64,000 nt of DNA from Physcia stellaris (Eukaryota > Ascomycota > Lecanoromycetes > Caliciales > Physciaceae). This document shows positions 35,213 through 59,430 of the stretch, piece after piece; the first letter of the stretch is position 1; each line of letters starts with the position of its first letter. Where the stretch lies: the NCBI GenBank assembly GCA_018902385.1, contig JABSSW010000001.1:868001-932000 (forward strand), in the 5' to 3' direction. The notes under the pieces were generated by a model. It did no database searches. It saw only the letters and a list, made by a program, of their open reading frames with translations, and was not told the origin of the DNA. A program made the position numbers and the translations under genes.

Positions 35213-35338
35213 AATTATTGCGATAATGAATCGATTTTTGTTATTTTTGCAACGTTGAAATGCGTTTATTCTGTTCTACAATTTTGACTAAATAAGTGAA
35301 AATCATATTTGATTGCTGATTGATGTACAGATTGCAAA
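35213..35338 (+). repeat. Dispersed direct repeat, left copy
   Basis: About 125 bp, beginning near ATTGCGATAATGAATCGATT, matches 36,664-36,787 in the same orientation with mostly transition differences. The pair is about 1.45 kb apart and brackets a less eroded segment. It could be a terminal repeat pair of an unknown element. Confidence 0.6.
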
Positions 35339-35544
35339 TCAATTGCAACAACAAATTACATTTTTGATGATTGATCGTCAAGTAAACTCTGAACTAATCA
35401 AATCGGAAAAGAATGCCGCAAATCTGAATTAACTTGAGAAATTTCATGTCAAACATGAAGTCTGAATTGCAGAAATTGCAGTCATTTGATCATATTTTCG
35501 AAACATATCATGATTTTTGATCGAGTCTAATGCGAAAAGACGAT

Positions 35545-35598
35545 AAGACGATAAGACACGTGATATCGAATAAGACAATAAAGCACGTGATATCGAAT
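35545..35598 (+). repeat. 27-bp tandem duplication
   Basis: Two adjacent 27-bp units that each contain CACGTGATATCGAAT. They differ at a few positions. Confidence 0.75.
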
Positions 35599-36663
35599 TC
35601 AATAATTTGAATCGATTGATTTCGAATCAAATGAAAATCGATCATTTGATTGCTTTTTCATCACGTTAACATCGATAAATCAATTGCTCGAATTTCAATA
35701 ATAAAAAAAAAAACGCTTTTGAATTTCGTCGTACAAATAATGTTCAAAAAATTGTTTCAAGAATTCTTTTTCGCACAGAAATATATTATTTTTTTCTTAT
35801 ATGTATACGCATTTTTTCGATATCGTTGTTGCGAATAATCGTACAAAGCGAAAAATAGAATCGTTTTATTACGATTCGATCAATCACGTAATCGTTCTTT
35901 CATTTATTTCGAGAAATTCAGATATTTTCATAAACATTATATAATTCAGATAATGCGAATATTTCTTTAAAATAAGTAGCTTTGTATTTTTGTGACGAAT
36001 AATTCAATTTATTTTTCAGAATTTTCGAAAATTTTTCTTTTATTTTCGTTACAGTTTGTTGTTCAATGCGCCATCAATAGCAAAAAAATTCGAATTTTCA
36101 TTCAATTTGCTTTTTTTGCAATTGTTGTTGAGCGATTTTGATTTGAAATATCGTATTTTTGTTCATCGCAAAAGCATCGAAAGCTACATCGAATAATGAG
36201 CGACAAAAAATGACAGAATCTTGACAGCATGTTCTCGATATTGAGTCATAAAATTCGTCGTAAATTCACTTCATTTCGTTATGATCGTTGACGATGTATT
36301 GAAATTTTCGAAACACAACGATCGATTGTTCGTTGATTTGAAATGAGTGACAATAAATAAACGAAACGTCGATATCGTCATCGTCGATATCAAGAAAAGA
36401 AAATGCTGATTGTTGAGCAAGTTGCTTTTGAGCGAGCAATTGCTCAAACTGTCGTTGTTTTTTTTGTTTTTTTCGCTTTTTTTGTTTTCGTAATGTCGCT
36501 TGACGTGCTTTTGCAATGATAAACAGATCGAAATTCAAAATAAATTGCATGATGAATGTGAGATGCTTGAAATAATGTTTCGAAAATGAATATGTGAACG
36601 TGTTTTGAATAGTGAAAAATTTTTCGCAACAATTTCGCGTGTAATGTTATTTGTTCAACTCAT

Positions 36664-36787
36664 AACTATTGCGATAATGAGTCGATTTTTGTTATTATTG
36701 CAGTTTTGAATTGCGCTCATTTTGCTTTACAATTTGAGTTAAATAACTGAAAATCATACGTGATTGTTGATTGATGTGCAAATTGCA
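36664..36787 (+). repeat. Dispersed direct repeat, right copy
   Basis: Partner of the copy at 35,213-35,338. The shared words include GCGATAATGAGTCGATTTTT and CTGAAAATCATACGTGATTG, allowing for C/T and G/A changes. Confidence 0.6.
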
Positions 36788-39365
36788 AAATACTGCATGA
36801 ACGCAATAATCGAATTTTGATGTTCGTGATTTGAATTTTGATAATTTTGTGATTTCTTATTCGATTAGCGTAGAATTTCAAAAGAAAACGCAGAATATTT
36901 TTTTATAAATTGTGTTCTATTTAAATTTTTGTTGATAAATTCAAAAAATTGATTGCACGACGCGACAATAACAAAATGCAAAAAATTATTATTCTTTGTT
37001 TAAAAAACACAATTTTGTCGAAAAAATGTTTTATTGTTTATCGATTCGAAATCGAATCTATTTTGATCAAAGCGTTTGAAACGTTTCAAATCAATTTTTA
37101 ATTTTTTTGATTATTTTACATAATATTCGAATCAATTTCAAATTTATAAAACATAACATAAAAAAATGAAATCGATTTCAAACATTTAATCTTCGAATAA
37201 AATTTTGAAATATCGAAAAACATTGATTGTTATGACGACATAATTTTTCATCAAAACGTATGCAAACAAAATTTGTTTATTTTCGTTTTTTGAATTGACA
37301 TTTAATTTTGAATATCGCATTGATTGTCGTTCATATTTGTTCGTTTTCATGTTGTTTTTAAAAAATACGTTCATTTTAATTGATGTCGATAATTAATTTT
37401 AATTTTAATCGTAATAAAAAAATAAATAAAAAAACATTTAATGTTTGATCATGCAAACAATTTTTGAATGTCAAATAATTTATGTTAAATAAATAACATT
37501 ATTGATGAAAATGAATCAATAATGAACAAAATTTTTCGAAAAACAACAACAAATTTTTATTTTTTCGTTTATTATCAAATTTGTAACAAATAATTAATCG
37601 ATATTTAAATAAATCATATGTCAAATTCGTTATGATTTGAATTTTCACGAAATTTCAAAAATGATTTAATTTCAATCACAAATTTGTTTTTGTTTTTGTT
37701 TTTGAAATCATTGAAAAAATTTAATTTAACTTTTCAAACATTTGTTTATTTTAATTTTTTTTTCGTGACAACGAACACAATTAAAAATCAAATAAACATA
37801 ATACACGACAAAATTTAAATACGTTAATAAAATTAATTTCATGTGTTATGAAAAATTTACGAATGATATCGATGTAATTGCACGCACGTATTGATAAACG
37901 TATTCGTAAATTATTGTTTGAAATACATTTGATTTTATGTACATTTGATTTTAATTGAATTATTGTTTTCAATACGATTTTTTTTTCGAATATTTTCATT
38001 TCGACGATTTTGATATCAATATAACAATTTTTTATTCGAATCAAAATTAAAAATTTTCAAATTTGAATATAATAATCGAAAACAAACATATTTTTATTGA
38101 ATAATTTTCGTAATTTAAATATCGTTTTCGTATTGTTTCAATTCATACGTTCGAACAAAATTTATTTAATAACGTTGTCATTATTCAACGACATTGCAAC
38201 AAAATTTTTTCGTAAATTGATAAATATATTTTGCGCATATTTGCAAAAAAATTGATTGATTTTTTTAACGACATGTAACAATAAACAGTTTTTATAACAT
38301 TGTTGCAATTCGAAATTTCGAATTCGTTTTTGTCATTTTTTGTTATTAACATAAAATACATTATTATCAATTCGATATTTGTACGATTTTTTGATTTTCA
38401 TGAAATTTGAAATAAAAAAATCGAATGAAATTTGTTTTTGCAAAACAAAAAAATTCACGTTGTTTCGAAATTTTTCGTATTTTTATCAATGAAATGATTG
38501 AAATTATAAAAATTAATACAATTTTTTCAAACAATTTTCGATTTTTTAATCGATTACATCATTCGATAAAATCATTTTGAATTTTTGTTAACAAAAAAAA
38601 ATTATTGTTTTCGTTTTTTTGTGAATGTTATTGATATCGAATAACAAAACAAAATTTTTTCATTGAATAACAATTGTTCATTTCGATTTAAATTTCGAAA
38701 TTTCGTTGCATGATTGAACAACGCGAAACGCATATTCATTGAATACGACATTAAACGATAATTATAATTCAATCGTAAACATATTATTATTTTGTACAAC
38801 AAAAAATTCGTGCGTACAATTTGTTGTAATGTTGAATGTATATAATTTTCAAATCATTCGCGTTCGAATTTTTTTTTGATAATAAACGTATAATATCGAT
38901 ACATTGTTAATTTATTCAAAAACATGTTTCAAACGTCGAAAATGTTTATGAATCAATTGTATGCGTTATTTATGTTCACAAAACTTTTTTTTATGTTTTT
39001 ATTAAATTCGTTTTCGCGTATATTTTAATAATTTCGAAATTTATATCAAATTTCAATGAAATCATAATCGAAAATTTGAAATATGACGACGAATTCATAA
39101 TTGAAATTTTGAACATTACAATCAATGTGAACAATGTAAAAAAAATTGATAATTGATTTGATTTTTTCATGTTGATTTTGTTAAATTTGTAAAACGTTTT
39201 ATACGTGAAATTTCGTTTAAATTTTTTAAATTTCGATTGCAATTTTTTTTCATCGATGTTTATTGAATTTTTCATTGTTGATGTTTGTGCGAAAACATTA
39301 AAAATTACGAAAAACACAAAAACGCGAAAATTCGCGAAAAACAAAAAAACACGAAAAGTCGTAAA

Positions 39366-39395
39366 TGTGACAAACGTATATCGAATTCAATATTT
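39366..39395 (+). mobile_element. Old solo LTR, left fragment (split by a later insertion)
   Basis: The first 30 bp of an LTR (TGTGACAAACGTATATCGAA). It continues at 51,207 after the inserted element. The 5-bp target duplication GTAAA lies just before it (39361-39365) and again after the right fragment (51400-51404), which shows that one LTR alone remains. Confidence 0.85.
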
Positions 39396-39590
39396 TGTGA
39401 CGAGCGTGCATCGGATTCAACATTTGGCAAAGCTAACATTCTTATCTTATCACATCGGATGACAGAGTCGAAACTCGTTTATGATCAAATTTTTTACATA
39501 TGTTTTCGCAGATTTTCATGTATTTGCTTTTCACTTCGATATTCTCGTGTAATTATGTAATTAGTTCATATTTTTGCATAGCATTTCACA
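39396..39590 (+). repeat. Left LTR of zinc-finger element, copy 1
   Basis: 195 bp, TGTGA...TCACA termini, same length as its partner at 51012-51206. Confidence 0.88.
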
Positions 39591-40746
39591 TTATATCGAA
39601 ATCATTCACGTCATGCTCGTTTAAGATACGCGAGCATTAAATAAACAAGACATTCTGTTTTCATAAAGTTCAATGATAGTGGAGCATAATAGGTTCGTAT
39701 CGCTCGATCATTCGAAAAAAGCATCGAAGCAAACAACAGTGAACTCGTTGTGAATGTAAGCAGAAACGAAGCATAATAGACTCGTTCGTCTGCGTCAATT
39801 GGCATTCAGAACAGACGAATTTACGCGATAGTTTAGGTTCACAAACAAATTTTCTTCAAGCGTTGATTCAGATTCGCTATATCACTTGTTGATCACGGAG
39901 GTGACTCGGTCAAGTCATCAAATCAGGTTTAGGTCATCAAGAAAACACAAGTCACCAAATCAGGTCTAGGTCATCAAGAAAACACCATACAAGAAACTCC
40001 GTTATTCGGCCAGAAACCTTGTCATTACATCAGAAATTCTCGGCGGGACTTGAATCATCTACTTGCTTCGAGAATTTTTCAAAATACTACTTACTTTCTT
40101 TGCAAACGGATTGTTTTCTCTAGTCTCTGCGATGAATTCAATATCAGATCTTCAAAGCAGTGACTGTTTCAGAGTCTCGATCATTGCATCAGAAATTTTC
40201 GATCGAATTCGAATCATCTATTTGCTTCGAGAATCTTTCAGAATTCTTATCAAATTCTTAGCGAATTGATCGTTCTTTCTTATTCATTCGGTCAACTCGA
40301 TATCTGATTTAGAAATCTTCGAATCCTTTCACAATATCTCTTCAAACAATCAGCATTGAAGTCATTCTTCTTATTTGAGAATCGATCATAAAACATACCT
40401 ATTGGTCATAGCAAATCGACATCTCTCTCTTGCTACAAAGATAGTCTCAGTAATCGAGTCTGGAAATCAGTCAATTCTTCGACAGGATTTTCTATTGACA
40501 ATTCAATATCAATATCTGAGTCATTCTTGATTCTTGAGAGTCTTCAAGAATTACATCTGTCTGTCTAGCAAATTGACTTTAATCTTCGTCATCTATGATG
40601 AAGTTGATAGTAACTCGAGTCTGGTTTCAAATTATCTTCGAACAATTCAGCATTCGAATAATATTGAGATCATTTACTTTTTTCGAAAACATTGCAAAAT
40701 TACGTTCAATTAATTAATTCGTCAACGTGCTTTTTCGATTTTCGCG

Positions 40747-43645
40747 ATGTTTTCAATATTTTCATTGTTTTCGAATTTCGATTTTTTCAATTTTTTTCGA
40801 GATATCGGTTTTTTCAACTCGAGTCTGACATGTTCTGATTCAGAAATCAGACGATTCAATGAAGCCGCGAGCTTTTTACGAAATCTTGAGCACTGTCAGA
40901 GATTGTATCGATATCGAAGAACGAAATTGCTTGAATACATGATGTGAGTTCTCAATGATCTCGTCTGGGAATGATTCAAGAAACGATCGCATTTCAACTT
41001 TTTGCTTCGTTTTGATATGATTTTAATCGAAGCATTTTTTTCGTTGAAACAACGAGAGTTAGAATCAATAATTCAAAAGCGAGCAAAGCGTAAAGCTCGA
41101 AAGATCGCGAAACGAGTTGAGTTAAATGTCATAGAAACGGCAAAGCAAACATCAACGCTTCAAGATTTCGATATTTTCGACTCATCATTGGCATCTGACA
41201 GGTTTGAGTTCGGTTTGTATAGCAACGTCGCGATTTTTTTGCAACATTTTGAGCAATGTCAACGTTTGTATCGCAAGTCAGACTTGCTGAATTTGTTGTC
41301 GACGTGCTTATGTGGTCATGCGTTTGATTGATTCAAAACTCAGTTTGAATTTATCTCGTTGAAACGCTTCGGTAGGATTTTAGCGAAAGCGTTTTCAGAA
41401 ACGTCTGTACGGCGTGCTTCATCAAGCAGTTCGAATTTTCAGCTTTGTACACTCGTCGCGATATCGAAATTCAGGGAGAATGCATCAGGTCAACAAGCCG
41501 CTAAAGCGGTCTGCAAGCTTTGCAAACAGAATTTCAATTTCAACAACGAGTTATACGAGCATATTCGCAATCATGAAGTTTCGAAGCTCGTCAAGAATTC
41601 TCATCTCTCGATCAATGCAGTCAATTTAGTATGCGAAATCAAGGAGACGTCATTCGCTTCGCATAAATCATCTGCTTCATTTGCAATTCAAAAGTCGGCA
41701 AACGAATTTGCATCAGCATTCAGAACAGTCACTTTATTGAAACGTTCGTCTCTTTCGCCTTCTACATTCGGAGCTAGATCAGAATCAACAAAGAATAGAT
41801 CAACTCAGTGTTTTGCTACTTCGCTGAAGTCATCATCTCCTCAAACGTTCGAATCAAGACATCAAGAAATCTCGATTCAGAAGTTTTCAATCATCAGCGC
41901 ACCTCTCTCGACCGATACAGCCAATTTAATATACGAAACGATGAAGAAATCAGTCATCGAATTATCTTTGTCTGCGTCTTTTGGTATTTTTAATTCAGCT
42001 CGACCTCATCAGAACTCAGAAAAGAGACGATTCAATCAAGTCGTCATTTTCATTCAACATCTTCAGCGATGTCAGCACCTGTATGATGAGTCAGAATTGC
42101 TCGAATGGATGAAAGTAATTCTTTGTGGTTTTGTCGACATCTGGTTCAAAAATCAACCGGATTTCATTTTTTTGCACGATTTCGGTATAGCTTTAACGAA
42201 GGCGTTTTCTGAACGCTCGGATTTCTCACTTCCTACACTGAAGACTGAGTCAGAATCAGCGGAGAGATCAGCAACGTGTCGGCACTGCAAACAGACGTTC
42301 AAATTCAAAGAACTTCTTCGCAAGCACAAACGCGAGCAGCATGCAAAGAAATCTGTCATCAGCTCGTCTTTTCGGTTCTATACATTCAAATCAGTATGCA
42401 AAGCAGAGGAGAGGTCAGCAATCACTCCAACTGAAAATGCCTCAGAGGTCACTTCAGAAACGAGAGTCGAGTGGCGATCGCGCACTGCTTATTTATCTAC
42501 GAGATTGAAAGTATCACGTTTGGAATTTTTCGTTAAATACGTTCGTAATTATACCAGAAGGAGTGGAGAACGCATCGATTCAAGAAGTCACATGTGTTCG
42601 AGCAATGTGCAGATCTTGCGAACAGAACTTCAACTTCAATGAGAAGCTCTTCGAGCACATTCGCGAACATGAAGTTTTGAAACGCGTCAAATCAACATGC
42701 GAAACAGCGACTTTTCAAATATCAGCACTCGAATTTGCATCAAAATCGATGAAGAAATTTTCAATTCAACAAATCGCTTGCGCTCGAATTTGCAAACGTT
42801 GCAAACAGAATTTCAATTTCAATAACAAACTTCACGAACATATTCGCGAACATCATGCTCGAAAGTCTGTCAAGAGTTTGAATTTTCGAGTCTTCACGCC
42901 AAAATCTACATGTAAAATCAAGGAGAAGTCAGCAGTCATTTGTTCACTTGCTTTTTCGTCGACCCTCTCTGCAACATCTACATCGATATCTGAATCAGTA
43001 TCATCAGAGTATTCGCATCTTTTTATTGCGACACTCAATATCACATCAAAATCGATGGAGAAACTATCAGTCAGTTGTTCACTTACATTTTCGGCTTCAC
43101 TTTCTCGAACATCTGTATCAAAACATCAGAAATTTTATTTCACTATCGATGATCTGGTTCGCATGTTTCGTGAGAAGTCTAGGTCATTTGATTTACATTC
43201 GCATCAAAAAGACTCTGCTTCTCCGCAGCGTTTCGGCGGTATTTCATCTCGTCGATCACGCTTCTCCATGCATCAGTCACGAATAATCTCTTACTTCATG
43301 CCTGCAGCCAATCAGAAGGCACCGATTAGTCAGGGCTTGAAGAGCTCAAAATCGAAGACTTCGAAGCAGCACATGCTTGCGGAATCAATTCGCCCTGTCC
43401 TGTCGGAGAGATCGGTCAATTTATCATACAAAATGTCTGATATTTTTTGCATCATCTTCAAGTCTTTTGTCGAGGCTTTTTTTTTCATTTCTATACTTCT
43501 TCGTCTTTTTCTGGTCTTTCTCCTTGTTTTCGCATTCGTTTCGGCCATTTTCGCTGCAAGGATGGGTTGTATTAGCGTCTGTCAACAAGCAATTTTCGTC
43601 ATTGGTCGTGTCAATATTGGATTTGTCGCTTCGGGACGAAGCTGA
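40747..43645 (+). other. Coding relic of the zinc-finger element, copy 1 (fossil, several breaks)
   Basis: The region holds at least three copies of a unit of about 65 residues with the pattern F(L/I)xxLExCQxLYxxSxLL, then WFKxQxxF and LxxAF. The pattern recalls the helical capsid part of Ty3-type Gag, but that is an inference. Between and after these units lie four classical C2H2 fingers (C-x2-C-x12-H-x3/4-H), for example CKLCKQNFNFNNELYEHIRN and CRHCKQTFKFKELLRKHKRE. Long linkers are Ser-rich. The same order is seen in copy 2. The function of the protein is unknown; nucleic-acid binding by the fingers is the simplest guess. The reading frame is interrupted, so I treat it as a fossil. Confidence 0.7.
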
Positions 43646-43976
43646 GACGAGACGAGGGATAAATTGCTCGAATATCCAATCACGAAACATCTTCATAAAA
43701 GGTTTATTGCATACACGTTTTACTGGATAAATCGTACACAACGACTATCGCATGCGCCCAAGTATCGATGCGTTAATCGTTGTTACGCCGGTTCTGCTAA
43801 TACCGTGAAACTGCTCGTCTCATCGTATAATCGGCCTGGTGTTGCAAGGATTCAAGGTCTACATTAATGCCCTCATTACATTCAAAAGCTCGAGTCTCCG
43901 ATCCTTTACACTCTAAACTACGTACTAGACTCTGGAGAAGCAAGCTCTCGATCGTCTGCTTATTTCATCATCTACG

Positions 43977-44150
43977 TCACCGCCTGCACACTTCGCGGAT
44001 TGACTGCAAATCAGTCCCTTTATCAGTTGCAATGATCTCGGCCTCAGGTACCTCGCATAGGTCTGCATCCGTCATCAAAGCACAGGTATCTCGACTCACA
44101 TCGAAAGCCTGATAGAAGCGAATTCCTGCTTCAAGGTTTTCGGGTTTCAT
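43977..44150 (-). other. Antisense open frame conserved between both zinc-finger elements
   Basis: A 57-codon minus-strand frame near the 3' end of the internal region (start MKPENLEAG, containing CALMTDADLCEVPEAE and DLQSIREVCRR). The more mutated second element keeps a matching frame at 60257-60445 with the same ending. It could be a small antisense gene of the element or an accident of shared ancestry. Confidence 0.4.
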
Positions 44151-44598
44151 GTACTTCCAAATGGTCTACCATATCACTTACTTGCAGGTATCATGGCTCA
44201 TGCCTCGCAGTCAGACTTCGGACAGGAATTTGGAAATTCTTTTTCATGTCTTTTCGTGTATTTGTATTAACTATCAATCAACCTCGCATGCATGCTCAAG
44301 GATCTGCTGGAGAAAACGCCTTTTCATCATACGAAATGACGCGATATCTCTGCACATTTCATGCCTTAATAATTCTTTCGTTACGATTCAAAAAAATGGA
44401 TCTCCAAGGTCGCATCGTTTGCAGAAGCCATCTTCGCCGTCTTCGTCGTTACATTCCAGATTCCTGTACGTCTCCATGGTTGTCGCATCCGCTATGGACT
44501 GTACACATCTAGGAACGAGTCATCAAGACCACGTACTCTGCCGACCGATGGGAGAAAAAGAATCAATGGGGTAATCGCTTCGGAAAGAAGCTGAGATG

Positions 44599-44822
44599 TG
44601 TTACGAGCATGCCTGGCAGGTAGGTCTGGCAGGTAGGTAGTTGGTATGGTATGTGGTCGGGCAGCGGGCTATGCCCTAATTCTACGTTGGAACTAGCGTG
44701 GTTTGAGGCTTGGCGTCGCACACTGCTTGCAATTTCAACATTTTGTACCTACTTGTTTCTGCAGACTTATTGTTTTCGTCTAGCTAGTCAATAATACGTC
44801 TATTCAAGCACGACTCATGATA
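44599..44822 (+). repeat. 5' LTR of the chromovirus
   Basis: 224 bp starting TGTTACGAGCATGCC. It keeps balanced composition, unlike its partner. Confidence 0.9.
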
Positions 44823-47039
44823 TTACAATAAGTTTTCAATTCTATCGCTCGTCGTGATACGCGAGCGTTCAAAAATAAAATCTCAAACCGATCAAGTTCT
44901 TTTGACGAGACAAACGACGAAAAGTTTTGTTGATCAAACAAACGATCAAAAACTTTTCTGACGAAACACTTGACGAAAGTCGTGAAATAACAAGTCGAAT
45001 TTTCACGCAAACGACGATATCTTCGACGATAAAAAAAAATTGACTCGATTAATTTTTTTTTTTTTATCACTCTTCAATTTTTCATTTTCAGTTATGATTC
45101 GAAGTCATCACGAAACAACTTTTTTCGAATCTTTTATTTCGATGAAACAACGCCTCAGAACGTTACGTTTCAATGTGAATCGTATGCTACAAGAAATCAA
45201 TGACAACTTTCTCGACGAGAATTTCGTCGAGCAATTCAAGCGTCGTCGATTTGTTTCAACGATCGAGTTCATAGAAATGAAAAATAACGAAATCATTCAT
45301 TTTCTGAACATCGTCATCATCGATCAGTTGAAATGATGAGTCAACCAGAAAATCATCGACTTTTTGAAAAAATTTGATCGATTACGCATTGATCGTGACA
45401 ACTATCTGAACGTTTTGATTCAATATCAAAATTTGTACAATATCGTCAACGTCGATCGTGACGAGCTAATCAATACAAACGTTGAATTCGATGAGATTCG
45501 CAAAAAAATGAATACATTGAAAATTAATTACGAGCAAACGCGTGATCGACTTTTAATCAAACAACACGATTACATTTTTTTCAAGAAAGATCATGACGTT
45601 CTGCTAACCACGACTCGCGACCGTACACGAGATTCTGATGACGACGACGAAAACAGCGACGACGAAATCAGCGTAATTAATTTTTTCAATAAAAGCAAAC
45701 GACGCTCAAAAGTTCATTCAGATTTTTTTAAGTTCATCGACGAAGTGAAATCTATTTGACGTGTCTGAAAAACAAAAATGCATGATAAAATGACGATCAA
45801 CGTCGATCATTACGACACGAACATGATCGCAATCATTATTGTGATTGACTGAACTGAAAATGATGCCGATGATCACATACAATCGATACGTGATATCGAC
45901 ATGAATCATTTCAAAAACTGACATATGATGTTGAAATTTCTGAATTTCATTTTCGAAAACTTTGATTTCAAACGCAATATGCGTACTCAATTCCGAGCAT
46001 TGATCATGAGTATTCAAAATTTTCAATTTTTTTATTTCATTTTTTTTCGCTTTAGCAATTCAATCGGCTATAGCGAAGTCATCAAGATCGAAAAGTTGAT
46101 GAACAAGATTTCCTGAAATTTGAAAAAAGCGATGAATGTATATTCACGTGAATTCATCACGCTCGATGAAATTCGAATCATTTTGCAGCAAATTTACAAT
46201 CGACAATCGAATTTTCGAAAAGAAAAGATCGCGACACGTCAGCAACGTTCTGAACTGTTTCAATTCAAATCAATTTTTGTCGTTTCGATCTCGATGCCTT
46301 TTACGAAATTTGCTATTTCGATTTTCTTCGTGAAACTTGTCGCTCACTTTCATTTCAACGTTGAAATCAAGACTCATGATTCGATGACAAACAAACTGAT
46401 CGTCACGAACAAATGTTTCACATGCGATGAAATCGATCACGTATGAAAAATGTGCCCGAACGCTCACAAACATCAAGAACGTCATTGACACAAAATGCAG
46501 ATGTTTTACATGAACATGATCAACGAATCGAGCGAATTTGACTCGAAAAACTGATAATTCACATCAAAAACGCGATTGATGAGTGTTTAAGAATTTTTTC
46601 TATTCATCATGACGAATTGTTTGATCTTTTTGCCAGACGATCTTTAGTCATCAATTGTACGTTGTCATTCAACGATAATAAACATAAACTAGAAACTTTA
46701 ATAAACACTGATGCAACTGATTATGCTTTCATTGATAAAGAAATTGCGCAACTTGTATGCAACATGCTGAGCATGAACTTCGTATTCCTATTAAAATCGA
46801 AGCTCATTATCGAATTCGACGATCGTCAAACTTTTTCAATAACTCATGCCATTTATTTCAAGCTGACAATTGATCTGTATTTCGAGTTGATAGCTTTTTT
46901 GTTCATCATCGACCTGAACAATCATTCGATAATTCTAGAAAAATCGTGAATGAACAAGCATGAAATTATTCTGAATATGATTTACGATAAACTGATTTTC
47001 AAATCGTTCAGATGTAGTCATCATGACAGTATATTCATC

Positions 47040-47620
47040 AAAGCAGTGCAAACTCGACGTCTGAAAACTTCTGATCAAGTCAAATGATCAATTACGTTTG
47101 TGTGTGAATTATCGACGACTTAATCACATCACGAAACGCAATCGATATTTCATTTTCCTGATTGAAAAAATTCTAGCTAAAATGCAAAATTGCAAGTATT
47201 TGATCAAGCTGAATATCATATCGATTTTCAACAAGCTTCGAATGAATGAAAAAAATGAAAAATTCATTACATTCGTTACCTTCATGAGATCGTACAAATA
47301 TCGAGTATTATTTTTCGAATTGATCAACGAATTCGCGAGTTGACAACATTACATGAACGATTTGCTGTTCAGTTTTCTGAACGATTTCTGTCAAGTCTAT
47401 CTAAATGATATTTTCATTTACAACAAATCTAAAAGAGAGCACATCGTTCACGTTCGTAAAATGCTGAAAAGACTCAAGAAAGTCGAATTACAGATGAATA
47501 TTGAGAAGTGCGAGTTCTTCAAGAAAAAAATGACATTTTTGAACGTCATACTATCGATGAATGATTTTCGCATGAATTCGAAAAAAATAAAAGTCATTGT
47601 CAATTGAAAACGTTTTACAA
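47040..47620 (+). other. Reverse transcriptase relic of the chromovirus
   Basis: Recognisable blocks are CVNYRRLNHITKRNRYF (fingers/palm), YLIKLNIISIFNKLRM and the active-site strand QVYLNDIFIYNKS, in the order expected for Ty3/Gypsy. Fossil. Confidence 0.85.
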
Positions 47621-48689
47621 ATTTGAAAAAAATGCAAATTTTCGTGAATTTCGTCAACTTTTACAAACGATTCATTCGTGATTTTTCGAAAAAAATTCGA
47701 ATTTTCATTCGAATGATCAAGAAGCTCGTGAGTTTCGAATGAACTGCTGAAATCGAAGAGATTTTCAATTTTTTCAAAAAAACGATGATCGAAATTTTCA
47801 TATTACGACATTACGATCGAATCAAACAAATCATTTTGAAAATTGATTTTTTTGATTACGTCAATGCGAAAGTATTATCTCAATACGACGACGAAAAAGT
47901 TTTGCATCTCGTTGTCTTTTATAATCGCAATATGATTTCAGTCGAGTGCAATTACGAAATCTATGACAAAAAGTTGTTGATCATTATTCGTTGTTTAAAA
48001 CATTGACGTTCTGAATTTGAAAACATTGAAAAATCGATCAAGATTTTCATCGATCACAAAAATTTGAAAATCTTCATGACGTCAAAGAAATTAATTTCTC
48101 GTCAAATTCGTTGAGTAGAAATTCTTTCGAAATTCAATATTGTCATTCAGTTTCAGTTCGAAACTCAGAACGTTAAAGCAAATATTTTGATTCGTATGCT
48201 TGATTCACGATCAAAAAACGATATTGACGAACGACATCAATATCGAGAGCAAATATTGTTTATTTCGAAACGACTCGAGATTCACGCGATGAAAATTGAC
48301 GAATTTATTTATGAACGAATTTTTGCTGTCAATCGAACTGACGATGACTGCACGATTTATCGTGAAATCATCGAACAAAGTTTCATTTCAGTGAATGAAA
48401 TTGATTTACGAAATTGCATTGAAAAAAACGACGTTTTGTATCGAGAAAATCGATTTTGAATGCTCGTCGATGCTCTTTTACTCGTTGATTTTTTCAAAAA
48501 AATTCATAAATTTTTTGTCTCGAAACATTCAGATTTTAATCGCATGGAAAATCTTATACGTCGCGATTATTATTGATTCAACATGCGCAAAACGATTCGC
48601 CGATACGTACGTAATTGTTATGAATGTTAACGTACGAAAACTTTCAGAAATCGCAAAAACGATTTATTTACTTTTTTGATCATATTTTT

Positions 48690-49130
48690 GCAACGTTGAA
48701 TCGACATATCAATGAATTTCATCATCGAGTTGCTCGACGTTCACGATCATAATGTCATATGCACGATAATTGATCGATTTAGCAAAAAACGTCATTACGT
48801 GTTTTGTATCGTCGACGACGAGAATATCAATGCTGAAATCACGATCAAAATATTCATCAATTACGTATTTCGTACACATGAATTATTTTTTTCGATAACG
48901 TCTGATCGAAATTCTCAATTCATATCGTTCGTTTGACAGACATTTTGCCGAATTCTCGACATCAAATGTAAGTTTTTCATCGCTTTTCATTCAGAAATCG
49001 ATGAACAAATCGAGAGAGTCAATCAAAATATCGAAAAACAATTGCGACAATATTGCAATTACATGCAAAACGATTGAAACGTTTGATTGTTCATGATCGA
49101 GTTTGCAAACAACAACGCAATATTTGCAAC
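48690..49130 (+). other. Integrase core relic of the chromovirus
   Basis: Block MNFIIELLDVHDHNVICTII and the following TSDRNSQFIS correspond to the D and second D regions of a Ty3-type integrase core. Fossil. Confidence 0.75.
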
Positions 49131-49599
49131 AACAAAATTATTTTCATTTTTCATCAATAAAAATTTTCACTTTCGTATGAGCTTTTCATCAAATTTTATC
49201 TCGTATGTTATAACGAGAAAGCGACTTCTAGTCGTCAAAACAGAAAATATTATCGACACGATGCAAAATATTCTCAATTACGTACGAAATCATGCAAAAA
49301 TGATTCAAAAACGTATGACAACTCAAGTCAACAAACATCGAAAAATCGTAAAATACGTCGAAAGAAATTTCGTTTTTTTCGATTGACGAAACATCAAAAC
49401 GATCAAATCGTCTGACAAACTCGATGACAAAAAACTAAATTTTTACAAAATATTACAACGTATGAGCAACTCATATCGATTCGAATTGTCTGAAATCATG
49501 CATATTTACGATGTGTTTCACTGTTGATTTTTGCGCAAAGATTTTCGTGACTCGTTCGAAAATCAAATCAATGAATTTTCTGATTCTGTCATAGTCAAC

Positions 49600-49780
49600 G
49601 AAAATTTCGAGTGAAAAATAAACGATATTTTGAAATCTCGATATCATTACAATCGTTTTCAGTATCGTGTCAATTGATCGAACTGATCGCATGATCGAAC
49701 ATGATATTATGTCGACAACGAAAAGTTCGATAATGTTCGCGACATGATGAACGATTTTCATCGCATTCATTTCACGATTG
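49600..49780 (+). other. Chromodomain-like relic at the end of pol
   Basis: The region after the integrase resembles the chromodomain pattern (E-W-x-I-x-D-I-L-x-S-R, then Y-x-V, then a terminal F-H). Chromoviruses use such domains to target heterochromatin. Fossil. Confidence 0.6.
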
Positions 49781-49987
49781 CAAATTCAAAATCGTTCAAA
49801 ACGTTGATTTCAATATTTCAAAACGTCGTCAACGCATCAGATTTTTCAACGAGTCGTCGTCGTTTTCGAAAAAAAATCGTCATGCTGACACTAATCGAGA
49901 TTACATTCGATTAAAATTTGAAAATTTCGAATTCAATACATTCATCTCGATTTCACTCTCGCAATATTTTCGCAATTTTTAGTTTTC

Positions 49988-50105
49988 GTTATCGTCTCGA
50001 TGTTACTTACAGTCAAGACTTACGTCGCATGAAAAGTTGAATCGTGTCAAAAACATTTTCAAAAATTGTTGTCAAATTTTATCGAGCTTTGAAACAATAA
50101 CGAAG
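49988..50105 (+). repeat. Block shared between chromovirus 3' end and zinc-finger element
   Basis: About 115 bp containing GTTGAATCGTGTCAAAAACA. It matches 50,578-50,695, which lies outside the chromovirus, in the same orientation; the differences are mainly C/T and G/A. Confidence 0.75.
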
Positions 50106-50247
50106 CATCTGAAAATGAAAAATGATGATCATGAAACTTTTGAATTTTGCAAATATTCAAATCAGTCAACAAGATTTTCAACAAGATTTTTCAATTTCGA
50201 AACGACAACGGATCGTCGAAACGACGTTCGCGAAAAAAAAAGAATAG

Positions 50248-50471
50248 TGTTACGAGCATGTCTGGCAGATAGATTTGACAAATAAATAATTGATATGATA
50301 TGTGATCGAGCAACGAGTTATGTTCTAATTCTACGTTGAAATTAGCGTGATTTGAAATTTGACGTCGCACATTGTTTGCAATTTCAATATTTTGTATCTA
50401 TTTGTTTTTGCAGACTTATTGTCTTCGTCTAACTAGTCAATAATACGTCTATTCAAGCACGACTCATGATA
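50248..50471 (+). repeat. 3' LTR of the chromovirus
   Basis: 224 bp, same length as the 5' LTR but strongly AT-shifted. Confidence 0.9.
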
Positions 50472-50577
50472 AGATGATTCTGATGTCTGTAACTAGTCAG
50501 AAGACATCACGTCAATCTCAAATTCGTCTAACACTCATCTTTGTACGAGTTTTCAATGATCTTTTCATCAATTTTCT

Positions 50578-50695
50578 GTTATCACTTCTGCGTTATTTAC
50601 AGTCAGGACTTACGGCGCATGAAGAGTTGAATCGTGTCAAAAACATCTCCAGAGACTGTTGCCCGATCTTACTGAACTGCGAAGAGATAACAAGA
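50578..50695 (+). repeat. Second copy of the shared block, in the zinc-finger element
   Basis: Partner of 49,988-50,105, with less mutated sequence (GCGCATGAAGAGTTGAATCG). It lies in about 480 bp that zinc-finger element copy 2 appears to lack. Confidence 0.7.
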
Positions 50696-51011
50696 TGCAA
50701 AGCAACAAAGTGCTTGAGACTCGAATGCATACAGATTGATTAACAAAATTTCATCAAGGTTCTCATTTCTGCAATCAAGATTCTCATTCACATGATTTCG
50801 ATTTACGTCTTCGTTTACGTTTTCGTCGTTCTTTCGATTTCTAATTCCAGATCACGTTTGTTGCATTTACTTCGATCATTTCAGCTTTCGCAATGATCTG
50901 TTCAACTACTCACGCTTTAGTCAACGATATTCCTCGAATCGTCAACCGATAAAAAAAGTGAAAAAGATGATTAGTCGCTTCGAGACGAAGCTGAAAGAAA
51001 ACGAAAAGTAA

Positions 51012-51206
51012 TGTGACGAGCGTGCATCGGATTCAACATCTGACAGAACTAACATTCTTATCTTATCACATCGGATGACAAAGTCGAGACTCGTTTATGA
51101 TCAAATCTTCTACATATGTTTTTGCAAATTTTCATGTATTTGCTTTTCACTTCGATATTCTCGTGTAATTATGTAGTTAGTTCATATCTCTGCATAGCAT
51201 CTCACA
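51012..51206 (+). repeat. Right LTR of zinc-finger element, copy 1
   Basis: 195 bp, TGTGA...TCACA, preceded by a purine-rich tract. Confidence 0.88.
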
Positions 51207-51399
51207 CATTTGACAAAATTAATATCGAATTAACATCGTTATTTTATCACATCGAATATTAAAATCGAAATTCGTTTTGACGCATTCAAAAAATCAAATT
51301 TTCTACATATGTTTTTACAAATTTTCATGTATTTGTTTTTCATTTCGATATTTTCGTGTAATTATATAGTAATATTATATCTTTGCATAACATTTCACA
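51207..51399 (+). mobile_element. Old solo LTR, right fragment
   Basis: Continues the LTR broken at 39,395. It starts with the duplicated target CATTT and ends TTTCACA, followed by the solo LTR's own target duplication GTAAA. Total length without the duplicated 5 bp is about 218, close to the 216-bp LTRs of copy 2. Confidence 0.82.
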
Positions 51400-51530
51400 G
51401 TAAAAAACACGAAAACACGAAAAGTCGTGAAAAATACGAAAATACGAAAAGTCGTGAAAAGTACGAAAACACGAAAAATCGTAAAAAACACGAAAACACG
51501 AAAAATCGTGAAAAACACGAAAATTGAAAA
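51400..51530 (+). repeat. Minisatellite-like ACACGAAAA / GTCGTGAAAA array
   Basis: Irregular alternating units (CACGAAAAGTCGTGAAAA). The same sequence type lies at about 39,300-39,365 on the other side of the nest, so the oldest insertion went into this array. Confidence 0.75.
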
Positions 51531-52436
51531 AAAAATTATGAATGACGAAAAAATGTTTAAATTGTTTGTTTTTCGATTGATGAAATCGAAATATTCGAAA
51601 AAACGTCGAAAAATGAAATTTGTGAACGAAAAAAAATGTTAAAATTGTTGATTCGTTTGTCAATCGATTCGAAACGTTCGATAAAACGTAAAAAAATTTC
51701 AAAAAAACGTTAAAAATATTGAACAATGTTTTTGTACGATTTGTCGTGAAAAAATCGTTAAATTCATATTTTAATTTGTGATTTATTTGTATCAAATTCA
51801 AACGTAACAAAAATTCGATCGTAAAAAATGTTGTATCGTCGTATTTTTCATTTAAAATTTGAAATGAATTTTGAATTGATATATTTGAATTTTTTCGTTT
51901 TTTTGAAATTTCAACGACATTCATTTTGATTATTATTGCATTTTTCATTATCGTTCGTATTCAATCGAAATTCGAATACGATTTTGCGATGTTATTCATG
52001 ACGTTTAATGTTCGTGCAAATGTTTACGAATGTATCATTTTTTTCATGTTGTCGAAATTTTATATTTGTTTTAATTTTTTTTGTTCGAAATTTTCGTTGT
52101 TTTTCGATACGAAAAAATTTTGTTTTCGTTTTTTTATTCGTTTAACGATCGTTTTTTAATTTCAAATAATTTATTGATAATTTTTGTTCAATCAATTGAT
52201 AAAAATTCGTTATGAAACAATTTACGTCATGAAACAATTGCAAAATAAAATTTCGAACGTTTTTTAATAAATTTTCAAAATAAATGTCGAATATTTTGTG
52301 TTTTACAAAATTTTTCAATTCGTCAATGTTATTGAAAATATTTGATCGAATCATTAAACGTTGATTTATTTATTTCAACAAAATATACGTTCGTCGTTCG
52401 ATTATTTTTGTAAATGTCATTGTTATTTTAAAATGT

Positions 52437-52700
52437 GATTTGAAATTCATTAATAAAACGTGAACAAATCAAAATTTTGCAAATTTACGCATTTTTTGAA
52501 AATTGATGTTTGAATTATCGAATGAAAAAACAAAATTTTGCAAATTTACGTATTTTGTGAAATTTGTTTTAAAATATGATTTGAAATTCATTAATGAAAC
52601 GTGAACAAATCAAATTTTTGCAAATTTACGCATTTTTTGAAAATTAATATATAAATTATCGAATAAAAAAATTAAAATTTTGCAAATTTACGCATTGTGT
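52437..52700 (+). repeat. Two tandem copies of a ~134-bp unit
   Basis: Each copy has TGATTTGAAATTCATTAAT followed by AAACGTGAACAAATCAAA and TTTGCAAATTTACGCATTTT. Confidence 0.75.
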
Positions 52701-53360
52701 AAAATTTGAATTGTGAAATATCAATTGAAAAAAAAATTCATTTACGATTCAAAAAAATAAATTCGAAAAAACGAAACAAATAATGAATTTATTGCAAAAA
52801 AATAAATTTGCACGTCGTTTATTAATTCAATTCAAATAAATTTTCACGATCGTTTTTTTTCGTTTTTTCGCACGCAATCGTTAATGTTTATTGTTTTTAT
52901 TTCATTTAATATTTCACACACATTTTGTTGAAAAAAATGTTTGTTTTGATTTTAAACAAAAACAAATATTCGAAAATTACGAATTCGAATATTTTTTTTA
53001 AACAATTTAATTTAAATGTAATTATTTTTTGCAAATCACATATTTATTTGTTGAATTTTGATCGTATTTTGAAAAATTCAATTAACGTAATGATATTTTC
53101 AAATTTTGACGATTTTTAAAATCAAATCGATGTATCAACGCAATATTTTTTTGCAATAAAATTTTTTTGATTGATGCGTATTACGAAACAAATTTTTTTG
53201 ACGTTTCAAACGTGACGAAATCATTGCGTAAAATTCATAATTTTAATTTGAATACATTTTTTTTGATTCGAACGATAACATCGATATCGTTTGTAAATTT
53301 CGACAATTTTTTTTTGCGCAACAAAACGATGTTATTAATATTTATTTGCGACATTTCGAC

Positions 53361-53730
53361 AAAATGATTGTATTGAACGATTAAAATTAACAATATTTAT
53401 TCGTCGATTTTTGAATAACGCGATTGAATTAAACGTTCAAAATTAACGATATTTATTTGTCGATTTTTAAATAACGCGATTGTATTGAACGATCAAAATC
53501 GACGATATTTATTCGTCGATTTTTGAAAAACACAATTGAATTGAACGATCAAAATCAACGATATTTATTCGTCGATTTTTGAAAAACGCAATTGAATTGA
53601 ACGATCAAAATCAACGATATTTATTCGTCGATTTTTGAATAACGCGATTGAATTGAACGATCAAAATCAACGATATTTATTCGTCGATTTTTGAATAACG
53701 CGATTGAATTGAACAATTAAAATCATTATG
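53361..53730 (+). repeat. 56-bp minisatellite, about 6.5 copies
   Basis: The unit contains GAACGATCAAAATCAACGAT and ATTTATTCGTCGATTTTTGA; spacing of matching words is 56 bp (for example 53,585 and 53,641). Variants between units are mostly C/T or G/A. Confidence 0.88.
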
Positions 53731-55339
53731 TAAAAGTTAAAACGTTGACGAAATAATGTCTAAACGCAAACTATGTGATTAAATTTTATATACACAAATC
53801 ATGCTTTTACACAATAAAAAACTAATTCATCGTTTTTCAAATCACAGAGTTTCAACAAAGTTTTTACGTCGAATTAAATTTTGATTGAATCATACATCGC
53901 AATGACTCGATTTTCGACGAATATTCATGACTCATTTATAACGATTTTTTTTGCTTTTTTTTTTCTATCACAATTTCAAATTTCGAGATTTCGATTATCG
54001 TTTGACAAAACATTTTCAAAATCACAACGTGAATAATATTATTGATTTTTGTGACATCGTTAACATTCTTTGATCAAAAATTGATTCGCAACAATAAACA
54101 TGACGTTTCAACAAACGATCGATGCGTTGTTGTTTTCAATTCAAATTTTCAATTTCAAAGCAATGTATGATCAAAATCGCGAAATTTACGATCAAATCAT
54201 TGCTCATTGCGAAATGAAACAGTTCGTTCAATCAAATTTCAAACAACAATGCAAAATTTTGATTATGATAATCATTATTTTGTTTGAATGTTCGAAATTA
54301 AAACAATCGAAATTGCAACGAAATCAAATCATACGTTATGAACTGAACAAAACATGAGCAGTTTTCAAAATCTTCGAGAAAACGAATTCGATGAAAAGTG
54401 AAAACAAAAAAGTTTTGAATCATGTTTTGAAACTGCGCACGACGCAAATAAAAACAACGTTTCGAATTGTTTTGTAATCATGTTGTCGAAAGAAAAATCT
54501 TGACGAAAAAAATGAATTGAAAATACACGAACGTTGATATAAAATAGAAATTGCAAACTGTAATAAAAAAAAAATAACAAATATAAAAATTGATCGTCGT
54601 TGTTTTGATTTATGAAAGTTTTGAATTCGAAAATTGTTTTGTTATGAAATGTATTCGCAATAACTGTTATATACAATATGATTGTCATTTTTTTTTCAAA
54701 TTCGAATCATTAAAATTATTAATATTTATTTTGAATATGATTCGATATAAATAAAAACGTATTTTTTTGAAAATTTTCGTGAATTCGCGATATTTTTTTT
54801 TCGTCGTATTGTTTTTTGTTTTTTATTTTTTTCGTTAATCGTTTTTATAATATGATGAATGTTTTTTTAATTGTTTTCATTTATTTGTTGTATCGTTTCA
54901 TTTTATTTTCGAATATCGATATCGACGATTAAAATTTTTTTTGTTTTTTATTCATTCATCAATCGATTTTCGAACGTGAAAAACGTCGAATTTCAAAAAT
55001 TTCATTTATTTATTGTATCGTTTGATTTTATTTTCAAAAAACAACATCGATAACAATAATTGTTTTTTTTGTTTTCGATAAATAATGATTTTTAAAATCG
55101 AATATTCAATTATAAATGCGTATATCAATGAAAACGCGAATTTTGAACATTTTCACGCACGCGAATTATTTTACATTATTTTACAATTTTTTGTTTTCGA
55201 ATGTTTGTTTATTTTCGCGCAATTCAAATCGACAAAATAACAATAAATTTGATTAAATTTTGTGTTGTTCGATTCGATTCGAAAAACGTACGCGAAAAAA
55301 AAAATTTCAATATCAAAATTTCAATATTTTATTGTTCAA

Positions 55340-55615
55340 ACGTTTTAATTTTTTATTGATTAAAACAATTTTTGTATCAACGTTTATTTAATGCAAAAAT
55401 TTCTCATTAATAAAACAATCGCGATTTTTAACACAATTCGAATTTTTGATGAAATTTTCAATTTTTGTGTTGATTTTTTCAATATTAAAATTTAATTTTT
55501 AATTTTTTATTGATTAAACGATTTTTGCATTAACGTTTATTTAATGCAAAAATTTTTTATTGATAAAACAATCGCGATTTTTGACACAATTCGATTTTTT
55601 AATAAAAAAACAACA
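55340..55615 (+). repeat. Two tandem copies of a ~150-bp unit
   Basis: Both contain TTTTTTATTGATTAAA, ACGTTTATTTAATGCAAAAA and ACAATCGCGATTTTT. Confidence 0.7.
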
Positions 55616-55885
55616 TTGATTGCGAAATTACGAATTTTTAACAAAATTTCGACAACGTCACAATTTCGAAAATGACAAAATGACGTTTTTTTTTGAAACA
55701 AAAAAACAAATTTGCAATTTTTTTTATTCGATTGAATTTGTAAAAAATTGAAAATTTCAACGAAAAAAACAAAACGAATGAATTTTTGACAACAATTCGT
55801 GAATTATCGAAATTGTCGATTACGACGAATAATTGACGTTTGCAATTTAATAATAACAATATAAATTTATTCGTAACGACGACAA

Positions 55886-56101
55886 TGTGACGAACGTGTA
55901 TCGATTTCAACATTTGAAATCAACATTTGATCAATCATTAAAATTAACATTTTTATTTTATCACATCGAGTGTTAAAATCGAAATTCGTTTATGATCAAA
56001 TTTTTTACATATGTTTTGTCAAATTTTTTGTATTTGTTTTTTCATTTCGATATTCTCGTGTAATTATGTAATAATACTATATTTTTGCATAGCATTTCAC
56101 A
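55886..56101 (+). repeat. Left LTR of zinc-finger element, copy 2
   Basis: 216 bp, TGTGA...TCACA termini. Confidence 0.88.
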
Positions 56102-57416
56102 TTATATCGAAATTATTCACGTCATGTTCGTTTAAAATACGCGAACATTAAATAAACAAAACATTTTGTTTTCATAAAGTTCAATGATAATGAAACATAA
56201 TAAATTCGTATCGTTCGATCATTCGAAAAAAACATCGAAACAAACAACAATGAACTCGTTGTGAATGTAAACAAAAACGAAACATAATAGATTCGTTCGT
56301 TTGCGTCAATTGACATTCAAAACAAACGAATTTACGCGATAATTTAAATTCACAAACAATTTCTTTTTTTCAACGTTGATTCAAATTCGTTATATCATTT
56401 GTTGATCACGTTTTTTGATTCGATTAAATCATCAAATCAAATCTAAATCATCAAGAAAACATCATATCAAATATTAAAACACGAATCGAATTAGAAATTT
56501 CGTTATTCGATCAAAAATCAAATCTTTGATCATCAATACTCGAGACATTTTTTTCGTTCGAAAATCAATTCGATAACATATTTATTGTTTTTTATCAAAT
56601 CATTTTACTTTTCAATATTTTGAGTGAACTCAATATCAAATATCAGAACAATGACTGAATCAACAATTTCGTCATTGAATCAAAAATCAAATTTTCGATT
56701 TCAATATTCGAATCATCATTCTTGTTCGAAAATTTTTCGAAAACGTGTTTGTTGATTTTCGTAAAACGATTTTTCTTTTCAATCTTTGCGATGAATTCAA
56801 TATCAATTCTTCGAAATCTCATATCGAAAATTATTACATCGAAAATTTTCGATTGATTTTCATTTTTTCGATCGAATTCGAATCATTTATTTGTTTCGAG
56901 AATTTTTCAAAATTTTTATCAAATTTTTAACGAATTGATCATTTTTTTTTTATTCATTTGATCAATTCAATATTTCGTTTAAAAATTTTCGAATTTTTTC
57001 ACAATATTTTTTCAAACAATCAACATTGAAATCATTTTTCTTATTCGAAAATCGATCATAAAACATATTTATTGATCATAACAAATCGACATTTTTTTTT
57101 GTTACAAAAATAATTTCAATAATCGAATTTGAAAATCAATCAATTTTTCGACAAAATTTTCAATATTGACAATTTCATATCAATATTTGAATCATTTTTG
57201 ATTCATGAAAATTTTCAAGAATTACATTTGTTTGTTTTGCAAATCAATTTCGACTTTTCAACATCGATGATGAAATTGATAACATTTCGAATTCAAATTT
57301 CAAATTCGTTTTTCAAAATTTCGTCGAGCGCGTTAACATTCGAATCATTTTTTTTTTTCGAAACAATTGCAAAATCACATTCAATTATTTAGTCAATCAA
57401 CGTTGATTTCAAATTT

Positions 57417-59430
57417 TTGCGATGTTTTCGATATTTTCATTATTTTCGAATTTCGATTCTTTCAATTTTTCTCGAGATATCGATTTTTTCAATTCGAATT
57501 TATCATGTTCTGATTTCGAAATCAAACAATTCAATGATGTCACGAGTTTTTTACGAAATCTTGAACATTGTCAAGAATTGTATCGATATCGAAAAACAAA
57601 ATTGCTCGAATACATGCTTTGAATTTCAATGATTTTGTTTGAAAATGATACAAAAAACAAACGCATTTCAACTTTTTGTTTCGTTTTGATATGATTTTAA
57701 CGAAAACATTTTCTTCGCAAAAACAACGAAAATTAAAAACAATAATTCAAAAAAAAAAAACGTAAAGTTCGAAAAATCGCAAAGCGAATCGAATTAAATG
57801 TTATAAAAACAACAAAACAAACATCAACGTTTCAAAATTTCGATATTTTCGATTCATCATTAACATTTGACAAATTCGAATTCGATTTGTATAACAACGT
57901 CGCGATTTTTTTGCAACATTTTCAACAATGTCAACATTTGTATCGTAAATCAAATTTGTTAAATTTGTTGTCGAAATGTTTGTGTGCGTTCGCATTTGAA
58001 TGATTCAAAACTCAATTTGAATTTATTTCGTTGAAACGATTCAATAAAACTTTATTGAAAACATTTTCAAAAAAATTTTACGACGTGTCTCATCAAAAAT
58101 TCGAATTTTCAATTAAATACACTCGATGTTATATCAAAATTTATCGAAAACTCATCAAATTTTGAAATTACATTCGATCGAATGATTTGCAAAATTTGCA
58201 AACAAAATTTCAATTTCAACAAGAAATTATACAAACATATTCGCAATCATGAAACTTTGAAACTCGTCAAAAATTCTCATTTCTCGATCAATGTGATCAA
58301 TTTAATATGCGAAATCGAGAAAAAATCATTCGTCACGCATGTATCATCTGTTTTATTCGCGAAATCTCAAAAATTTCTAAATTTTAATTCATTTTTTTCA
58401 ATCGAAACAGTCGATTTAACGTGCGAAATCGCAAAGAAATCAACAACTGTCTTATTTGCAAAAAATGCAAAATTCAATTCAAAACGATTCGCAAAAATTC
58501 GAGTTTTCGTTGTTCGCATTCGCGTAAAACTAAAAATTGAACGAACAATTTTTCAAATATCAATATTTGAATTTGCATCAAAATCGATGAAAAAATTTTC
58601 GATTCAACAAATCGTTTGCGTTCGAACTTGCAAACATTGCAAACAAAATTTCAATTTCAACAACAAATTTCACGAACATATTCGCGAACATCATGTTCGA
58701 AAATTTGTTATATCGAAAAATTCTGATTTTCGAATTTTCGCACTCGAATTTGCATACAAAATCAAAAAAATCAACAATTATTTGTTCGTTTGTTTCGTTT
58801 GCATCATTTATTCTTTTTGCAACATCAAGAAATCAAAAATTTTGATTTTCAATAACGTTCGAATCAATGATCGCATCAACGCGTTCGAATTATTCGATTT
58901 TTACATACAAAATTAATTCAAAATCGATGAAAAGCGCAATTGTCGTTTGTTCGTTCATTTCTTTATTTATTTCATCGCTTGATTCAATTCGAAAACATCA
59001 AGAATTTTACATTCAAAAGTTTTATCTGATTGTGAATAATTTGAATCGTATGTTTGTCGAAAAATTTAAATCATTTGAAAACAAACAACATCAAAATCGT
59101 TGTCGTTTTTCGCAAAATTTTGCTTTTCGTCAACTCGATCGTTCATGCTTAACTTTTTCGAAAAAATCTTATTTCATTATCGAAAAACTGTTCGAAATGT
59201 TCGATGAGAAATTCAACAAAATGAATTTGTTTCAAAATCAAAACAACGTTTTTTTTCGAAAATTTTTCTCAAAACAATCGCAAATTACGATTTATTTCAA
59301 ATTTGCAATCAATCAAAAGTCGTTAATTAGTCAAAATTTGAAAAGTTCAAAATCGAAAAATTTGAATCAACACATGATTGCGAAATCAATTCGCACTGTT
59401 TTCAGCGAAAATTTATTTGAAAAATGAATC
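57417..59430 (+). other. Coding relic of the zinc-finger element, copy 2 (fossil, many breaks)
   Basis: Shows the helical unit (FLRNLEHCQELYRYRKTKLL) and at least two C2H2 fingers (CKICKQNFNFNKKLYKHIRN, CKHCKQNFNFNNKFHEHIRE) at positions that correspond to copy 1. Confidence 0.7.

Follow-up and report, generated by a model that had tools for sequence, protein, structure and literature searches.

A signature resembling repeat-induced point mutation, at CpC and CpT rather than CpA, in repeated DNA of Physcia stellaris

Repeat-induced point mutation (RIP) in Neurospora classically prefers CpA, and the locus described here raises the question of whether a RIP-like process may take other cytosines first. 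The locus lies in the genome of the ascomycete Physcia stellaris (assembly GCA_018902385.1, 44 Mb in 147 contigs), in a stretch of 64,000 nucleotides (contig JABSSW010000001.1, positions 868,001 to 932,000) that we call the window and by which all positions are numbered. A mutated chromovirus occupies 44599-50471 of it, and an initial annotation had proposed, from the two long terminal repeats (LTRs) of this element, a RIP-like system with a preference other than CpA. Our counts agree with this proposal; they come from copies of the chromovirus and of other repeats, from a ribosomal DNA (rDNA) pseudogene, and from AT-rich stretches placed blind to their content. As far as the letters of the genome can tell, a RIP-like mutator that would act in the order CpC > CpT >> CpA, CpG is well supported.

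The two LTRs of the chromovirus, both on the forward strand (5' LTR 44599..44822, 3' LTR 50248..50471), align without gaps over 224 bp each. An identical 5-bp target-site duplication, AGATG, stands on both flanks (44594..44598 and 50472..50476, unstranded), and the LTRs therefore belong to one insertion. They differ at 34 positions, every one of them C/T or G/A, as the initial annotation had counted by hand, and at 33 of these the T or A is in the 3' LTR and the C or G in the 5' LTR. By the context in the pair, 15 differences are at CpT, 14 at CpC, 4 at a C before a variable C/T, 1 at CpA and none at CpG. With the context taken from the 5' LTR and both strands counted, changes are found at 18/21 CpC, 14/30 CpT, 1/34 CpA and 0/20 CpG sites, or 32/51 for C before a pyrimidine (CpY) against 1/54 for C before a purine (CpR; Fisher p = 1.6e-12), which bears out the earlier statement that CpA and CpG were almost untouched despite their many sites. 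The 5' LTR is little mutated and has 21 CC+GG and 30 CT+AG dinucleotides; the 3' LTR is mutated at CpC and CpT on both strands, with 1 and 19 left. The two other LTR pairs in the window gave exactly the 14 and 8 transitions, and no transversions, that had been noted for them. In the older element that the chromovirus had entered (LTR-like segments 39396..39590 and 51012..51206, unstranded, 195 bp), 12 of the 14 are at CpT, 1 at CpC and 1 at CpG. In a related, more heavily mutated element (55884..56101 and 61000..61217, unstranded, 218 bp), 5 of the 8 are at CpT and the minority of 3 at CpA.

The same order was found among chromovirus copies across the genome. A 502-base query gave 42 genome matches, from which 17 loci, including that of the window and some with part of the element only, were taken; three of them served as references against 16 partner loci each, giving 48 comparisons. 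CpC and CpT were changed more often than CpA and CpG in all 48, so that the alignment of repeat copies by dinucleotide, proposed in the initial annotation as a check, returned unequal rates and a main context other than CpA. The pooled fractions are 3082/3339 (0.92) for CpC, 14328/19075 (0.75) for CpT, 2214/33715 (0.066) for CpA and 1182/34923 (0.034) for CpG; because sequences are shared among the comparisons, these counts are not independent and are descriptive, with no test attached. In the closest pair, from L020 to L021, changes are at 88/138 CpC, 89/606 CpT, 12/1064 CpA and 5/1062 CpG sites. Expressed as -ln(1-p), these are about 1.02, 0.16, 0.011 and 0.005, and the rate at CpC is thus about 6 times that at CpT and about 90 times that at CpA. 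The base 5' of the target C was of little weight (ACT 0.78, TCT 0.77, CCT 0.71, GCT 0.70), and the base 3' of CpT had a mild effect in five middle-stage copies (CTT 0.80, CTA 0.63).

The changes in this closest pair are also biased by strand. In L021 they are mainly on the bottom strand (CpC 83/121 and CpT 63/317, versus 5/17 and 26/289 on the top strand), and in L020 the bias is reversed (top CpC 11/23 and CpT 45/312, versus bottom 1/39 and 8/263). Tested within single dinucleotides, all four biases have p < 0.003; each copy was changed mainly on one strand, and the strands are opposite in the two copies. In each of 10 comparisons there were fewer runs of changes on the same strand than the average shuffle had, though not always fewer than in every shuffle. 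A bias to one strand in each round of mutation, as is expected of RIP, is thus present in L020 and L021. RIP clusters in Neurospora are 91.9% one-stranded (PMC7296669; statements on cited papers, here and below, refer to the portions of them that were accessible).

An independent view of the signature came from rDNA. The only 5.8S match, 39 of 2644 candidates having been scored, was a piece of mutated rDNA (L033, contig C41:45899-46052 plus flanks), and the exact 5.8S pattern had no match in the assembly. Intact rDNA was not found by these 5.8S searches, and the rDNA array may be absent from the assembly. We scored the pseudogene at the positions that the Rfam consensus for the large subunit (LSU), 5.8S and small subunit (SSU) rRNAs marks in upper case as strongly conserved, using the cmscan alignment with all alignment rows listed and the LSU match covered in part. 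C was changed to T at 29/35 CpC, 20/39 CpT, 2/34 CpA and 0/36 CpG sites, and A/U consensus letters were retained at 249/260. Six further C sites have neither C nor T (1 CpC, 2 CpT, 3 CpA); with other letters set aside, CpY is 49/71 and CpR 2/67 (p = 2e-17). Omitting five SSU rows, one of which is badly aligned, gives CpC 26/28, CpT 16/32, CpA 0/24 and CpG 0/34. This test uses an outside consensus, needs no assumption on the direction of change and is free of transposons.

Other repeats show how far the process may run. Among 16 non-chromovirus alignments (at least 200 bp, 80-99.5% identity, 9245 bp), the differing sites were 19/20 for CpC, 206/446 for CpT, 100/1141 for CpA and 60/875 for CpG. 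The older element, compared with its relative at 55.9-61.2 kb in two alignments of 77.6% and 59.8% identity with many transversions, gave CpC 49/55, CpT 187/243, CpA 49/308 and CpG 68/293. The segment at 37001..38400 (unstranded) belongs to another repeat family, which is saturated: CC and GG are wholly absent from its 7 copies (that of the window and 6 more, 9668 bp), and the fraction of comparisons in which C varied was 0.22 for CpA, 0.06 for CpG and 0.92 for the few remaining CpT. These counts give CpC > CpT >> CpA, with CpG usually last, and make CpA a late target; CpA is a slow third target and is not immune.

Such an order predicts that saturated DNA will lack CC/GG, be poor in CT/AG and in TpA and be rich in CA/TG/CG, and this matches what was observed. 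At 51001-64000 of the window the observed-to-expected ratios (o/e) are 0.00 for CC, 0.01 for GG, 0.17 for CT, 0.14 for AG, 3.80 for CG and 1.36 for CA. Nineteen 2-kb stretches on 12 contigs were positioned before inspection, a twentieth being put deliberately on the rDNA contig; 4 of the 19 were AT-rich, all with CC+GG o/e of 0.00, and the other 15 had 0.90-1.23. We also took 270 tiles of 1 kb, enriched by choice for chromovirus copies, of which 179 had GC below 0.40. The TpA/ApT index, which the initial annotation had wished to see compared, was low (0.46 in 51001-64000), and 0 of the 179 AT-rich tiles reached the usual RIP threshold of at least 0.89; CC+GG o/e exceeded 0.3 in only 5 of them, and tiles of GC 0.45-0.55 had CC/GG o/e of 0.93-0.98. 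In AT-rich DNA, CpA o/e was 1.1-1.4 and TpA o/e 0.40-0.53, and TpC was still enriched (o/e 1.2-1.5). Two features of RIP are therefore present in this genome. Repeats are mutated and genic DNA is spared, as seen in AT-rich against genic tiles, with the chromovirus and the family of 37001-38400 being repeated, and the changes are C:G to T:A transitions in the LTR pair and the rDNA pseudogene. The preferred CpA and enriched TpA of classical RIP are not found.

The contrast between mutated and spared DNA is visible in the layout of the window. From 1 to about 33500 lies its genic side (GC 0.49), and 33001-64000 has a GC of 0.29. The AT-rich repeat block (33501..64000, unstranded) begins at its genic-side edge, about 33500, where the count of CC+GG per 250 bp goes from 18 down to 1; this border is very sharp, and the mutations do not visibly extend into the genic side. 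Within the block, the chromovirus internal part (44823..50247, forward strand) is mutated, and the element as a whole has a GC of 0.33 and o/e of 0.13 for CC, 0.14 for GG and 0.41 for TpA. In its copy L020 an open frame encodes an integrase zinc-binding domain that scores above the Pfam cut-off. At 43250-44822, which comprises about 1.5 kb of the older element and the 5' LTR, CC/GG is kept at up to 31 per 250 bp, and the count goes down to 1 per 250 bp where the 5' LTR meets the internal part, a sharp edge within repeated DNA. The older element carries a 436-aa open frame (41332-42639), which matches a C2H2 zinc finger weakly, short of the Pfam cut-off. Local direct repeats are found in the block at 53338-53725, 52423-52730 and 55343-55607 (self-alignments of 83-90%).

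The initial annotation had further suggested that the preference largely spares Gln and Arg codons, and that long frames survive for this reason. With the two open frames of L020 as reference and 26 copy-by-frame comparisons, stops arose at 12/279 CAA, 8/190 CAG and 2/379 CGA codons, with 8 at other codons, in support of the sparing. Frames were still broken through Trp codons (TGG to TGA), with stops at TGG in 74 of 75 comparisons. The survival of long frames holds for the AT-rich block, which has frames of 436, 378 and 285 aa, and fails for the chromovirus of the window, in which no open frame of at least 150 aa is left. Because CpA is spared, TpA is scarce, and TAA and TAG would be expected to be rare in all frames.

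Several observations weigh against a simple reading of these data. CpA was above CpG in 46 of the 48 chromovirus comparisons only, the exceptions being L021 to L020 (CpG 29/1107, CpA 7/1033) and L021 to L016 (31/758 and 27/719), and CpG also exceeds CpA in the old, transversion-rich pair described above (68/293 and 49/308). As many as 15% of CpA sites were changed in the chromovirus copies with the heaviest mutation, and CpA made up 3 of the 8 changes in the LTR pair 55884-56101/61000-61217; the latter agrees with CpA turning variable once CpC and CpT are exhausted. Both CpA changes in the rDNA pseudogene fall in the five further SSU rows, one badly aligned. The strand bias is drawn from one copy pair. 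Simple homology targeting fails to explain why the 5' LTR, a sequence repeated elsewhere, was spared along with some 1.5 kb on its left. RID protein was also reported to have no methyltransferase activity in vitro (review PMC13297926). Apart from these points, the CpG excess in L021 to L020, and weakly in L021 to L016, is perhaps a separate CpG-type decay.

The genome holds candidates for the enzymes of such a system. The initial annotation had suggested a look for RID- and DIM-2-like methyltransferase genes, and a PF00145 profile search of the genome gave four matches in three genes, one DIM-2 orthologue and two genes that are RID-like by motif. The latter, L015 and L013, contain PPCQ in a C-terminal methylase domain, and the ENV of DIM-2 is replaced by EQT in L015 and by EET in L013; EQT in this position we take to be a marker of RID. 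In their hand-made gene models the in-frame stops fall in introns. L014 matched PDB 9bap, named DNA (cytosine-5-)-methyltransferase, with an E value of 4.6e-188; from PMC11315935 and the length, we infer that 9bap is Neurospora DIM-2, and by its sequence L014 is the DIM-2 orthologue. Species that show the CpA signature are reported to have one RID/Masc1 gene or two (Amselem 2015, PMC4352252).

We think it probable that the signature stems from repeat-induced point mutation in which the preference has shifted from CpA to CpC > CpT >> CpA, CpG, with the sexual timing and the enzyme being conjectural. In the sexual phase, repeats would be detected through their homology. An enzyme of the C5-methyltransferase fold, either the product of one of the two RID-like genes or DIM-2 in concert with them, would turn C into T at CpY; the base that it recognises 3' of the target would have moved from A to C or T. 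It is conceivable, at somewhat less than even chances, that the CpY specificity was gained by one RID-like paralogue, such as the EET gene of contig C6, or by the RID/DIM-2 set as a whole, as a natural inversion of target choice.

The same changes could arise without a RIP mutator if a DIM-2-type enzyme methylated CpY and the 5-methylcytosine then slowly deaminated. The genome has a DIM-2 orthologue, a review credits Neurospora DIM-2 with a preference for CpT (PMC13297926), and the structure paper on that enzyme (PMC11315935) describes an assay on a (CTA)12 duplex and an absence of extensive base-specific contacts. We nevertheless regard this as unlikely, for the strand-biased changes in L020 and L021 do not resemble slow decay, what is reported is a preference for CpT among all CpN contexts and not for CpC first, and the edge at 33500 is sharp without spread to the genic side. 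A cytosine deaminase of another fold that edits repeats or their cDNA, like APOBEC3 on retroviruses, is less probable still. Three genes with an OTT_1508-type deaminase domain above the Pfam cut-off are present (C38:375945, C34:399643, C17:41218), but APOBEC_N had no match at E <= 1 in the genome, in a search without a positive control that also gave none above the cut-off in 14 control genomes. Contexts of APOBEC/AID enzymes lie 5' of the target, and here the context is the 3' neighbour. The signature is carried by the rDNA pseudogene and by both strands of the element, while editing of cDNA expects one fixed strand and would leave rDNA alone; the fixed strand, 5' context and restriction to retroelements of an APOBEC-like system were thus not observed.

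Two further accounts deserve almost no credence. Ultraviolet (UV) or other dipyrimidine damage would agree with C to T changes that adjoin a pyrimidine, but UV strikes TpC strongly and TpC remains enriched. Genic DNA is spared, and plain AT-biased drift would not remove every CpC while leaving CpA and CpG. The signature might also be an artefact of saturation, in which CpA was exhausted long ago and only CpT still varies. This may underlie some published CpT-dominant families, such as those of Colletotrichum truncatum, CpT-biased with TpA/ApT of about 1.6 and a CpA index of about 0.1 (PMC6180176). It is hardly credible here, where CpA is abundant and TpA scarce in AT-rich DNA and where the conserved CpA letters of the rDNA pseudogene are kept at 29 of 34 sites, with 2 changed to T.

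Repeat-induced point mutation with a shifted preference would thus share much with RIP as it occurs in Neurospora crassa and in most Pezizomycotina: in both, C turns to T on either strand and in several kinds of repeats, displaced rDNA included. As in N. crassa, each copy is biased to one strand, AT-rich blocks lie beside normal genes, and RID-like and DIM-2 genes are present. Unlike RID-dependent CpA RIP, it takes CpC and CpT first, nearly spares CpA and depletes TpA instead of enriching it. Precedents exist for the CpT half of the signature. CpT is likewise a leading context in the mixed CpA/CpT RIP of Magnaporthe oryzae, Botrytis cinerea and Sclerotinia sclerotiorum (PMC4352252), the latter two having Masc1/RID genes in one or two copies (same source), and mixed CpA/CpT RIP is reported for Anisogramma anomala (PMC10998396). 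CpT was above CpA in Tad1 of N. crassa (PMC2621366), and in alignments from RIP-capable fungi CpT to TpT is said to predominate (PMC7882544). In the accessible portions of these reports CpA is also reported or CpA indices are used, and CpC is unnamed, whereas CpC leads here. The CpG-type mutation of transposable elements in Microbotryum and Tuber (PMC4352252) is likewise C-to-T in a context that is not CpA alone, but CpG is the least or nearly the least mutated here, and the PF00145 genes are two RID-like and one DIM-2. Neurospora DIM-2 resembles the present system in preferring C before a pyrimidine, with an orthologue here, and differs in that it prefers CpT and methylates rather than mutates; CpC first is unreported for it in the portions accessible. 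As a rule CpA is the target: a survey of 1,239 fungi concluded that RIP-like defences share a CpA preference (PMC12543289). CpC to TpT double changes are described beside classical CpA (PMC8959702). We found no published report of CpC first with CpA spared in a literature covered in part, and the 2011 survey of filamentous ascomycetes by Clutterbuck, for example, may hold one.

Standard indices are built on CpA and TpA, so DNA of this kind would be scored as RIP-free and surveys may under-count it. If the shifted preference is true, other genomes now rated RIP-free could carry a CpY-type RIP. How RID recognises its targets and how the C to T step of RIP is made are unsolved, and a relative with the opposite neighbour preference would provide a direct handle on both. 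A mutator that avoids CpA would also create far fewer stops, and this would alter the decay of mutated elements and of duplicated genes.

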